Shown: positions 7,851 to 13,584 of the stretch, one piece after another
Layout: each line of letters starts with the position of its first letter
Position numbering within the stretch: the stretch's first letter is position 1
From: a virus
Length of the DNA stretch: 21,275 nucleotides
Virus record (IMG/VR): IMGVR_UViG_3300027754_000507
Coordinates: 1-21,275 of that record
Strand: one strand, 5' to 3'
Notes under the pieces: model-generated
Database searches by the model: none
Seen by the model: the letters and a program-made list of their open reading frames with translations, nothing else
What the model was told of the DNA's origin: nothing
Translations under genes and position numbers: made by a program

Positions 7851-8624
7851 ATGACAGTAGAGATAGCAAGAGATAGATACGGTAGACCTATGGTAGTGCC
7901 ACCCAAGGGTGGCAAAGCAGTACCATACACACGCACTACTACAGTTGCAGGTTCATTAGATGATGGGACTGGACTAGTAGCATGGAAGTTACGCATGGCA
8001 GCAGCAGGTTTAACCCTGCGTCCTGACCTATTGCTTGCTGCATCAGCAGCCAGAGAAAATAAGTTAGAGATGGACAAGTTAGTAGAAGATGCTATGGAAG
8101 CAGCAGGTGCTACATCAGCAGCAACTATAGGCACAGCCATACATACACTGACAGAGAAGCACGACAGGGGCGAAGCCCTTGGCGTGATACCAGAAGACTA
8201 TGTTGCAGACATACAGGCGTATGATAATGCAACTAAAAACTTTGAGAATGTATTCATAGAACAGTTCTGCGTGTTAGATAAGTATAAGATTGCAGGCACA
8301 CCTGACCGTATAGTTAGATACAAAGGAGAGTTGTTTATCTCTGACCTAAAGACTGGTAGTATCTCCTACCCAAACAAGATTGCCATGCAGTTAGCCGTGT
8401 ATGCGCACGGCCTGCCGTATGACCCTGCTACGGCAGTCCGTAGCAGTTGGGGTGATGTGAACCAAGAGCGCGGTATCATTGTGCATCTGCCAGCAGGCAG
8501 TGGCAAATGTGAACTGCACTTTGTTGACATCAAGCAAGGATGGAAAGGTATTGAACTAGCAATGAAAGTTCGTACATTCCGAGACACAAAGAAATCCCTA
8601 GTAACATCTATTCAAGGAGAATAA
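7851..8624 (+). CDS. PD-(D/E)XK exonuclease, Cas4/RecB-like
   Basis: Metal-dependent nuclease of the RecB/Cas4 family, 257 aa, likely processing phage DNA ends for replication or recombination. Catalytic landmarks appear in order: GTAIHTLTE with His98, GTPDR with Asp152, FISDLKTG with Asp165 and Lys167, then AMQLAVYAHG with the conserved Gln. There is no cysteine cluster like that of true Cas4 iron-sulphur proteins, so it is closer to a plain RecB-type nuclease. AAGGGAG lies just upstream of the ATG. The gene opens the replication block and is followed without a gap by a zinc-ribbon protein. A pair of alternative hairpins lies within it at 8412-8446. Confidence 0.88.
   Translation: MTVEIARDRYGRPMVVPPKGGKAVPYTRTTTVAGSLDDGTGLVAWKLRMAAAGLTLRPDLLLAASAARENKLEMDKLVEDAMEAAGATSAATIGTAIHTLTEKHDRGEALGVIPEDYVADIQAYDNATKNFENVFIEQFCVLDKYKIAGTPDRIVRYKGELFISDLKTGSISYPNKIAMQLAVYAHGLPYDPATAVRSSWGDVNQERGIIVHLPAGSGKCELHFVDIKQGWKGIELAMKVRTFRDTKKSLVTSIQGE
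8412..8446 (+). repeat. Two mutually exclusive perfect stem-loops in the exonuclease gene
   Basis: CTGCCGTA (8412-8419) pairs with TACGGCAG (8429-8436). CTGCTACGG (8425-8433) pairs with CCGTAGCAG (8438-8446). They share bases 8429-8433, so only one can form at a time. Both stems are perfect, at 8 and 9 bp. The local sequence is more GC-rich than the surrounding gene. Confidence 0.5.
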
Positions 8625-9089: not shown

Positions 9090-9908
9090 ATGAAAACATT
9101 ACGCCGTAGTATAGGCAAGCCAGAGGTGGGGGGCGAACCACTTGCCCCTCCCTTTCAGGCTTTCCAAAGAGAAGGCATGATACTTAGGCGAGCAGAGGTA
9201 ACTGTAATTGCAGGTACACCTGGCGCAGGCAAGTCATCTATTGCATTACATATCGCAGCAAGACTAAAACAACCTACATTATATTTCTCTGCTGATACTA
9301 ATGCACACACTATGGCTATGCGATTACTCGCTATGAAAGCAAAGATATCTCAAGCACACTCAGAGTATATGCTTAAGACAGACCCAACCAAAGCAGAAGA
9401 ACTCTTACGAGAGTTCTCTAATTTGTACTGGTCATTTGAACCTAGCCCTACACTTAAAGATTTAGATGATGAGGTATCAGCATTTGAAACTATGTGGGGC
9501 AGAAGCCCAACGCTTATCGTTGTAGATAACCTTATGGACATAGCAATAGATGGACACGAAGAGTTCGCTGGCATGCGACAAGTAATGAAAGAGTTGAAGT
9601 ATCTTGCAAGAGATACTAACGCATGCGTATTAGTATTACATCATACTAAAGAAGGTGCACTAGGTTATCCATGTCAGCCACGCTCAGCACTACAGGGCAT
9701 GGTCTCTCAGATACCAGCAATGGTACTAACAGTAGGACAAATGATGCAGGGGCAAGACATATACCTATGTGTAGCCCCTGTTAAAAATCGTTATGGTAAA
9801 GCAGACCATAGCGGTCAGACATATGTCTCACTATCATTTGACCCAGCCTCTATGTATCTTGAAGATATAATGCGTGACTATAGACAACCAGAGATAGTCA
9901 ATGGGTAG
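9090..9908 (+). CDS. RecA/DnaB-type ATPase (replicative helicase-like)
   Basis: Single RecA-fold ATPase of 272 aa, resembling the C-terminal motor of DnaB/Gp4-type helicases without the N-terminal primase-binding domain. The Walker A motif is AGTPGAGKSS (about 41-50). Walker B is LIVVDNLMDI (about 141-150), and a VLVLHHTKEG strand matches the DnaB/RadA sensor region. The gene follows a zinc-ribbon protein without a gap and overlaps the resolvase by 8 nt. Together with the primase downstream it suggests a phage-encoded replisome. A recombinase-loader or RadA-like function is an alternative. Confidence 0.85.
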   Translation: MKTLRRSIGKPEVGGEPLAPPFQAFQREGMILRRAEVTVIAGTPGAGKSSIALHIAARLKQPTLYFSADTNAHTMAMRLLAMKAKISQAHSEYMLKTDPTKAEELLREFSNLYWSFEPSPTLKDLDDEVSAFETMWGRSPTLIVVDNLMDIAIDGHEEFAGMRQVMKELKYLARDTNACVLVLHHTKEGALGYPCQPRSALQGMVSQIPAMVLTVGQMMQGQDIYLCVAPVKNRYGKADHSGQTYVSLSFDPASMYLEDIMRDYRQPEIVNG

Positions 9909-10248
9909 TGCAGCAAAAGCCAAAGGTAGTGGAGCAGAGCGAGATGTAGTTGCATACCTCAAGCAATGGTTTCCTTATGTAGACAGACGCTTGGCTGGTG
10001 CAACCCTAGATAAAGGTGACATCTCTGGTATACCTGGAGTCACAATAGAAATTAAAAACCACGCCAAGATGGACTTGGCGGGGTGGACAGAAGAGTTAAT
10101 AGTTGAGATGACTAATGACAAAGCATGGACAGGCGTAGTGTGGCACAAACGTAAGGGTAGGGGAAGCCCTGAAGATTGGTACTGCACTATGCCTGGCTAT
10201 GTGTATGTAGATTTACTAAGGAGAGCACTTGGACAAACCACAGATTGA
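9901..10248 (+). CDS. Holliday-junction resolvase-like nuclease (Hjc/PD-(D/E)XK)
   Basis: 115-aa nuclease of archaeal Hjc-like or phage resolvase type that would cut branched DNA before packaging. The core is SGAERDVVAYLKQWFP with Glu13, then a basic loop (DRRLAGA), KGDISGIPG with Asp40, and TIEIKNH with Glu50 and Lys52, the ExK of the PD-(D/E)XK fold. The gene starts 8 nt inside the helicase gene and its end overlaps the TTG start of the primase by 20 nt, so translation is coupled. Confidence 0.85.
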   Translation: MGSAAKAKGSGAERDVVAYLKQWFPYVDRRLAGATLDKGDISGIPGVTIEIKNHAKMDLAGWTEELIVEMTNDKAWTGVVWHKRKGRGSPEDWYCTMPGYVYVDLLRRALGQTTD

Positions 10249-10606
10249 AGAGTATCTCAACTACATAGGCGCCACCGTGCCTCCTATGGGCAGCGGTTGG
10301 CGCAAGATGAAGTGCCCGTTCCATGTAGATTCACATGCAAGTGCAGCAGTAAACTATGACAAAGGTGCATTTATATGTCATGGTTGTGGAGTTAAAGGTG
10401 ATGTATACTCACTCATAATGTACAAAGAAGGCGGTGATTTCAGTGAGGCTCTCAAGTTCGCAGCGTCAGTTCTTACTACTGGCGACACAGCAATACGCAG
10501 CAAGGCTAGAACTGGCAACAGATTATCTATTAAGCCGTCATCTGTTGGTAGAAGAAGCAAACATCTTTCATCTGGGAGTGGTCGAAGACCCAATGCCAGG
10601 GCATGA
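10229..10606 (+). CDS. DNA primase, CHC2 zinc-finger part (TTG start)
   Basis: The first part of a DnaG-type primase, 125 aa. The CHC2 zinc finger is complete: MKCPFHVD (Cys29, His32) and FICHGCGVKGD (Cys50, Cys53). FSEALKFAASVL follows, as in DnaG after the finger. The last 45 residues are an R/S/K-rich tail and then a stop. TTG 10229 is supported by AAGGAG six bases upstream. The TOPRIM half lies in another frame (10434-11081), overlapping by 173 nt. Either the two halves are separate subunits, or a +1 (or -2) ribosomal frameshift or a sequencing indel joins them. A bulged 13-bp hairpin lies at 10269-10303, 40 nt after the start. Confidence 0.85.
   Translation: MDKPQIEEYLNYIGATVPPMGSGWRKMKCPFHVDSHASAAVNYDKGAFICHGCGVKGDVYSLIMYKEGGDFSEALKFAASVLTTGDTAIRSKARTGNRLSIKPSSVGRRSKHLSSGSGRRPNARA
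10269..10303 (+). repeat. Bulged 13-bp hairpin near the 5' end of the primase gene
   Basis: GCGCCA, CCG and TGCC (10269-10281) pair with GGCA, CGG and TGGCGC (10289-10303) with two single-base bulges and a 7-nt loop. It begins 40 nt after the TTG start, inside the coding sequence, and is GC-rich compared with flanking codons. It may influence translation of the primase. Confidence 0.45.
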
Positions 10607-11081
10607 ACCATACAAAAACAGACTGGCTATCCCATACATCACGCCATCAGGCGTGGTAGATATTAGATTCAGAGCCTTGCTTCCCGAACAAGAACCTAAG
10701 TATCTTGGTCTAGTAGGTAGCAAGACAACGATGTTTAATACGCAAGCATTATTTGCAGCAAACAAGTACATATGTGTAACCGAAGGAGAGTTCGATTGCA
10801 TCATGATGTCAGTCAAGACAACACATCCAACAGTAGGTATACCAGGGGCTAACAACTGGAAGCCCCACTATGTTAAACTATTAGATGACTTTGAAACAGT
10901 AATAGTATTAGCAGACGGAGACGCAGCAGGACTAGAGTTCGGTAAGAAGATAAGCAGGGAACTAGGCAATGTCAACATCATCAGCATGCCTGATGGTGAG
11001 GATGTCAACAGCATGATAATCAAGAAGGGGAGTAACTGGATACATGAGCGAATCGAACAATGTATTTCCACCATTAGATGA
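10434..11081 (+). CDS. DNA primase, TOPRIM part in a second frame
   Basis: The catalytic half of the primase. The frame is open from just after a TAA at 10416. Convincing protein starts near YAARLELATDYLLSRHLL, a typical DnaG catalytic-core entry, then HEPYKNRLAIPYITPSG. The TOPRIM motifs are CVTEGEFD (Glu117 counted from GTG 10434) and VLADGDAAG (Asp161, Asp163). The start is uncertain: GTG 10434 has AAGAAGG only two bases upstream, which is too close for efficient initiation, and GTG 10443 is an alternative. The frame is +1 relative to the CHC2 ORF. The last 38 nt overlap the next gene. Confidence 0.8.
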   Translation: MISVRLSSSQRQFLLLATQQYAARLELATDYLLSRHLLVEEANIFHLGVVEDPMPGHEPYKNRLAIPYITPSGVVDIRFRALLPEQEPKYLGLVGSKTTMFNTQALFAANKYICVTEGEFDCIMMSVKTTHPTVGIPGANNWKPHYVKLLDDFETVIVLADGDAAGLEFGKKISRELGNVNIISMPDGEDVNSMIIKKGSNWIHERIEQCISTIR

Positions 11082-11358
11082 TAGGTTCTGGGAGCATCTC
11101 AAACACATAGAGTTCTCTATTGGTATACCAATCTCAGAAACCAAGATGCTAAATATCTTAGGAGCACTAGAAGATATATACATTGCACTGGCTAGGGATG
11201 ACATAGAGGATGCAACTATGTGCCTTACGGCACTAGGTGCACTGTTAGTAGCCTCCAAGTATGACAAAGCAGATGAAGTATGGGAAGAATTAGTAGTCAA
11301 AGAAGCAATGCATAACTTCGACAAGCACCTGAAAGAGGTAATAGATGAAGAACAGTGA
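11044..11358 (+). CDS. Hypothetical helical protein, 104 aa
   Basis: I do not recognise a named family. It is predicted nearly all helical, with hydrophobic repeats around LGALEDIYIALARDD and LTALGALLVASKYDKADEVW, ending in a charged tail. The start overlaps the primase end by 38 nt, with GGGGAG about 12 bases upstream. The end overlaps the next gene by 14 nt. The position beside the primase suggests a replication accessory role, by association only. Confidence 0.7.
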   Translation: MSESNNVFPPLDDRFWEHLKHIEFSIGIPISETKMLNILGALEDIYIALARDDIEDATMCLTALGALLVASKYDKADEVWEELVVKEAMHNFDKHLKEVIDEEQ

Positions 11359-13163: not shown

Positions 13164-13324
13164 TGCCAAACTATGATTTCAAATGTAAATTTTGTGGCTC
13201 AGTGGTGGAGGTACAAGACCCGACACCAACAGGATGCACAGTTTGTGGCAACACAATGGTTAGAATCTGGACCAGTCCAGCCGTTAAGTTCAACGGCGGT
13301 GGCTTCTACTCAACAGGAGGATGA
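13163..13324 (+). CDS. FmdB-family zinc-ribbon protein
   Basis: 53-aa protein with the FmdB/CxxC_CxxC_SSSS layout: MPNYDFKCKFCG (Cys8, Cys11), then GCTVCGNTMVRIW (Cys25, Cys28), and the family's tail VKFNGGGFYSTGG. FmdB-like proteins are annotated as putative regulators, without a well-defined activity. The start overlaps the previous stop (TGATG) and its stop overlaps the WhiB start. It sits between sigma-like and WhiB genes, in line with a regulatory cassette. Confidence 0.8.
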   Translation: MPNYDFKCKFCGSVVEVQDPTPTGCTVCGNTMVRIWTSPAVKFNGGGFYSTGG

Positions 13325-13584
13325 TGTACACATTCAGTGATACAGCAAATTGTGAGGGTACCGACCCTGAAATCTTCTTTACACAGGATGGAAGTAGCAC
13401 ATATGCTGAAGTGTTGGCACTTAAAAGAATATGTGGCAACTGTGCAGTAGTTAAAGAGTGCCTTGACTATGCCTTAAGGCATCAGGTCATGGGATACTGG
13501 GGCAATACAAACGAAATACAACGCAAGATAATGAGAAAAAAACTGAATATAATCCCACGTCCACTACACATGGACTACAACTAG
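13324..13584 (+). CDS. WhiB-family iron-sulphur transcriptional regulator
   Basis: 86-aa WhiB-like protein. The four cluster-binding cysteines are Cys10 (ANCEGTDPEIFF), Cys37 and Cys40 (CGNC), and Cys46 (KECLDYALRH). The family's turn GYWGN (usual form G-[IV]-W-G-G) follows at 57-61, and a basic tail (RKIMRKK) ends the domain. WhiB proteins bind host sigma A region 4 and tune promoters; phage copies can alter host physiology. Two ATGs are adjacent (13321, 13324). AGGAGG directly abuts the first, so 13324 has the better spacing. This gene is the strongest evidence for an actinobacterial host. Confidence 0.93.
   Translation: MYTFSDTANCEGTDPEIFFTQDGSSTYAEVLALKRICGNCAVVKECLDYALRHQVMGYWGNTNEIQRKIMRKKLNIIPRPLHMDYN

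Follow-up and report, generated by a model that had tools for sequence, protein, structure and literature searches.

We present evidence that the window analysed here (the whole stretch of 21,275 nucleotides from the viral record IMGVR_UViG_3300027754_000507) very probably encodes its DnaG-type primase as two polypeptides, made from two overlapping genes by independent initiation. What resembles an error, a frame break between a CHC2 and a TOPRIM reading frame, would accordingly be a natural two-subunit primase, and the start of the second gene is placed at position 10443. That the two products are separate in the cell, form a complex and are active is what we infer. The locus comprises the following features:

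10229..10606, plus strand: gene 1, CHC2 zinc-binding subunit of the DnaG-type primase (TTG start, TGA stop at 10606, 125 aa)
10218..10223, plus strand: AAGGAG, the ribosome-binding site 5 nt ahead of the CHC2 start TTG 10229 (read directly from the sequence)
10443..11081, plus strand: gene 2, TOPRIM / RNA-polymerase-domain primase subunit (212 aa; from Pfam/PHROG, alignment and structure model)
10428..10437, plus strand: Shine-Dalgarno-like AAGGCGGTGA of the TOPRIM gene (duplex energy -9.0 kcal/mol; AAGGAGGTGA-type in relatives)
10443..10445, plus strand: GTG start codon of the TOPRIM gene (from start-codon conservation and the drop in CHC2-frame synonymous diversity)
10443..10606, plus strand: dual-frame stretch of 164 nt, coding for the start of the TOPRIM protein and the C-terminal end or tail of the CHC2 protein
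10481..10603, plus strand: tail of the CHC2 protein, residues 85-125, Arg/Ser-rich and predicted to be disordered (pLDDT about 40-50)

Both reading frames that an earlier note on this DNA had pointed out are present, overlap in different frames and have clear domain matches. The CHC2 frame matches Pfam Zn_ribbon_DnaG (E=4e-13) and, over positions 4-116 of 133, PHROG 360 'DNA primase' (E=4e-27), a separate CHC2-only protein; the TOPRIM frame, which lies in +1 relative to the CHC2 frame and is open from 10419 to a stop ending at 11081, matches Pfam Toprim_2 (E=5e-8) and PHROG 849 'DNA primase' (E=3e-45). The overlap of 173 nt given earlier holds when counted from the first GTG (10434), and shrinks to 164 nt when GTG 10443, the start favoured here, is used.

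The frame break is conserved, as the earlier note had proposed to check. In the close family, consisting of 80 IMG/VR loci fetched by the TOPRIM part and the window itself, the +1 offset with both frames open across the junction is found in 81 out of 81 loci, among them two other contigs (L001 and L002) that encode an identical TOPRIM protein. A wider set, obtained by profile search and from isolated phages, holds 170 loci with both parts (two more are cut by contig ends): the offset is +1 in 169 and +2 in one (Omar), and a single reading frame is seen in none. Five further phages (phiCAM, RGL3, Lokk, BarryBee and SWU1) have the +1 offset, and Spernnie has +2. A one-piece CHC2 and TOPRIM frame, the kind of homologue that would have spoken for one continuous primase, is seen only in FreddieHg, which is distantly related. 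A search of phages at the nucleotide level gave no near match to the DNA of the locus.

The earlier note had stated that the second frame has no good start, which is wrong because only the first GTG (10434) was judged and the second (10443) was overlooked. GTG 10443 is preceded by AAGGCGGTGA at normal spacing, with a duplex to the 16S tail of -9.0 kcal/mol against -1.1 for GTG 10434. Among 70 representative loci (thinned to below 85% identity), an ATG, GTG or TTG stands at this position in 66, against 26 expected when the locus is recoded with preservation of the CHC2 protein. By inspection of the four exceptions, PA6 and Omar have starts a few codons farther upstream, and L170 and Switzer are without ATG, GTG or TTG at the expected place. 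Relatives carry AGGAGGTGA at the same spot, followed by ATG (Kampy), TTG (EricB, DekHockey33 and Hiro) or GTG; the start codon thus alternates while the CHC2 residue read there also changes. Of 65 loci, 27 have a TOPRIM-frame stop two codons upstream of the start and others have one at -21 to -27, and no such stop was found downstream of the start. A further indication comes from the CHC2 frame: among 65 distinct close relatives, its 4-fold synonymous diversity is 0.43 before 10424, 0.47 at 10424-10441 and 0.00 at 10442-10475, and because it drops to zero from 10442, TOPRIM coding begins at GTG 10443. Judged by sequence evidence only, the CHC2 gene therefore contains an independent start codon with its own ribosome-binding site.

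The strength of that site was considered as a stand-alone proof and dropped. It averages -8.4 kcal/mol at the TOPRIM start against -2.5 at random positions; however, recodings that merely preserve the CHC2 protein already average -7.2 kcal/mol there and so yield nearly equal sites. The Shine-Dalgarno-like stretch is thus partly a by-product of the CHC2 residues.

The predicted products agree with two separate subunits. Translated from GTG 10443, the TOPRIM protein gives an AlphaFold2 model with a pLDDT of 93.5 and a first helix at residues 5-19; it matches the DnaG polymerase domains 5vaz, 3b39 and 5w33, and is predicted to form the complete fold of that domain. Its acidic residues E114, E116, D158, D160 and D187 (EGE, DGD and the D of the third motif) are invariant in 53 relatives. 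In the model of the CHC2 protein residues 1-84 are folded, matching 1d0q and 2au3, and residues 85-125 are disordered, so the predicted product is a DnaG zinc domain with a disordered Arg/Ser-rich tail; the zinc ligands C29, H32, C50 and C53 (CHC2/CHCC) are invariant in 44 relatives. In Switzer (L093, JF937108.1, 1468-3009) the TOPRIM gene has an apparent intein in the EGE-C-D active-site motif and a product of 513 aa.

Given that the tail is predicted to be disordered and that its length varies (the overlap ranges from 104 to 212 nt among loci), one might accept two real, separate genes and still hold the CHC2 reading past the folded domain to be a functionless run-on. We consider this improbable, as three observations argue against it. 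In recodings that preserve the TOPRIM protein, the CHC2 frame stays open to its own stop with an average probability of only 0.15 per locus (median 0.07), the loci being related. The 4-fold wobble sites of the TOPRIM frame are less variable inside the overlap (diversity of 0.24) than after it (0.38; P=0.003, though the loci are related and not independent trials). Finally, the CHC2 tails of Omar and Spernnie, where there is no overlap, resemble the ones that Hydra and phiCAM encode within their overlaps (as much similarity was reached in 0 of 2000 shuffles), and for this reason the tail is very probably a real part of the protein. Judging by these patterns, the CHC2 protein is constrained past GTG 10443 as well. 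In six loci (L158, L165, L168, L172, L085 and L174) from several lineages, the CHC2 tail closes with a basic YxP motif of similar sequence (YVPPRLR, GYVPAWKRK, GYQPRWRR), which may act as a docking peptide.

Omar and Spernnie, both Streptomyces phages, also provide a natural experiment. Here the CHC2 and TOPRIM genes are unfused and do not overlap, and each has its own ribosome site: the CHC2 stop TAA overlaps AAGGAGGAG, with the TTG start codon of the TOPRIM gene lying 15 nt further along. With separate genes, no fused chain is needed. Since the two phages nest inside Streptomyces phages with overlapping genes (support 1.0), the separation is derived; a relic of a tandem duplication behind their non-overlapping genes was looked for and not found.

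These phages bear on a further explanation, in which ribosomes would pass from the CHC2 into the TOPRIM part by a programmed +1 (or -2) frameshift in the overlap and so make one chain. The nearly uniform +1 offset, never fused, might suggest it, as might the Shine-Dalgarno-like stretch upstream of the junction; internal Shine-Dalgarno sequences are able to promote +1 shifting, as in prfB. A fixed offset is, however, forced by any long double-coding overlap. Moreover, the start codon changes in type yet remains a start codon, TOPRIM-frame stops lie just upstream of it, Omar and Spernnie use two separate genes, and no slippery codon common to the lineages is seen, since their CHC2 codons at the boundary are not the same. 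Overall, we regard such a frameshift as very unlikely, and give equally little credence to a variant in which the two proteins are accompanied by a fused primase, made by a minority of ribosomes that undergo a +1 shift within the overlap, with a fixed ratio of split to one-piece product. Neither an indel from sequencing or assembly nor a real frameshift mutation confined to this phage is tenable: the +1 break is retained by all close relatives and by all but one of the wider loci, without a single fusion, across many independent metagenomes and the finished genomes of isolated phages. From the options weighed in the earlier note, two separate subunits are consequently supported and an assembly indel is excluded, whereas a programmed frameshift found no positive evidence.

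The primase pair belongs to a replication cassette in the order exonuclease, DnaB-like helicase, resolvase-like gene, primase pair and further genes, many of which overlap their neighbours by a few codons:

7851-8624: exonuclease gene of the replication cassette
9090..9908, plus strand: DnaB-like helicase gene (PHROG 243, E=1e-70), same cassette, 5' of the primase pair
9901..10248, plus strand: gene named as a RusA-like Holliday junction resolvase (PHROG 244, E=3e-23; weak Pfam PDDEXK match)

The 3' end of the resolvase-like gene overlaps the CHC2 start by 20 nt. At the other side, the last 38 nt of the TOPRIM gene are shared with a 104-aa gene (11044-11358) that has no significant Pfam or PHROG match. 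Elsewhere in the window there is a WhiB-family transcription factor gene (13321-13584, Pfam E=6.5e-14), in keeping with a phage of actinobacteria, and a DUF4326 gene (2652-2969, E=7e-25) adjoins a YspA/SLOG-family gene (2065-2607, E=9e-14).

In the arrangement of two overlapping genes that we favour, both would be carried on one mRNA, with the CHC2 gene translated from TTG 10229 to TGA 10606 and the TOPRIM gene initiating within it at GTG 10443 of the +1 frame, by means of a ribosome site written in CHC2 codons. Translation of the second gene is probably aided by ribosomes crossing the first, i.e. coupled. The zinc protein would recognise the initiation site on the template and the TOPRIM protein would synthesise the RNA primer, presumably cooperating in trans and probably acting with the DnaB-like helicase encoded just upstream. 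The long overlap may go back to a one-piece primase in which the frame broke long ago where the zinc domain meets the polymerase domain; in the direction thus proposed, the overlapping frame would then have supplied the disordered tail. Such a split primase would be a natural case of a zinc domain that has to act in trans on the polymerase domain, which is of mild interest to enzymology; Corn and colleagues reportedly described in 2005 that the zinc domain acts in trans between DnaG subunits.

Gene prediction frequently omits or shortens one member of the pair. Among deposited annotations, the CHC2 gene is dropped in Yokurt (L083) and P318 (L087) and the TOPRIM gene is truncated at its start in Hydra (L090), phiCAM (L175) and RGL3 (L176), probably due to the overlap.

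In the open literature we found no paper that analyses the overlap of the primase genes or its translation, and no described split or frameshifted primase; the parts consulted of a review on recoding (PMC5009743) do not mention primase. As for the pair itself, a 2011 publication lists it for phages of P. acnes (PMC3094311), two DNA primases are mentioned in a Cluster A1 announcement (PMC9584200), and in proteomics of the Cluster A phage Kampy neither primase gene was among the detected proteins (PMC4626039).

The TOPRIM protein matches 1,550 phage records, mostly from Mycobacterium, Streptomyces and Propionibacterium phages, and among the matches listed most records have two primase genes under the match. 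Bacterial DnaG (Aquifex 2au3, M. tuberculosis 5w33) shares the CHC2 zinc domain and the TOPRIM polymerase domain, and consecutive stretches of the one-chain Aquifex primase align with the two window proteins. The window differs in having two chains instead of one and a shorter polymerase domain, and the C-terminal helicase-binding domain is not seen in either of its reading frames. The T7 gp4-like fused primase-helicase FreddieHg gp47 also has CHC2 and TOPRIM domains, but in one continuous frame annotated as primase/helicase and at a distant 28% identity. Further comparisons are Pahexavirus PA6 (gp31/gp32) and the Streptomyces Arquatrovirinae and Beephvirinae, with the same gene pair beside a DnaB-like helicase and a resolvase; PA6, Hydra, phiCAM, BarryBee and Treat have the +1 overlap of the window, unlike Omar and Spernnie with their separated genes. 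The earlier note was correct on two-gene primases in mycobacteriophages: Cluster A and its relatives (for example EricB gp59/gp60, Kampy gp54/gp55, Gordonia DekHockey33 67/68, Rhodococcus Hiro 48/49) are annotated with paired overlapping 'DNA primase' genes. They share the order CHC2 then TOPRIM, the +1 frame, an overlap of about 170-185 nt and AGGAGGTGA followed by an ATG or TTG start, whereas the start in the window is one codon later and GTG, and the TOPRIM part has only 42-47% protein identity to the window. The arrangement is therefore one already annotated in over a thousand phages of actinobacteria, and the window is another case of it.
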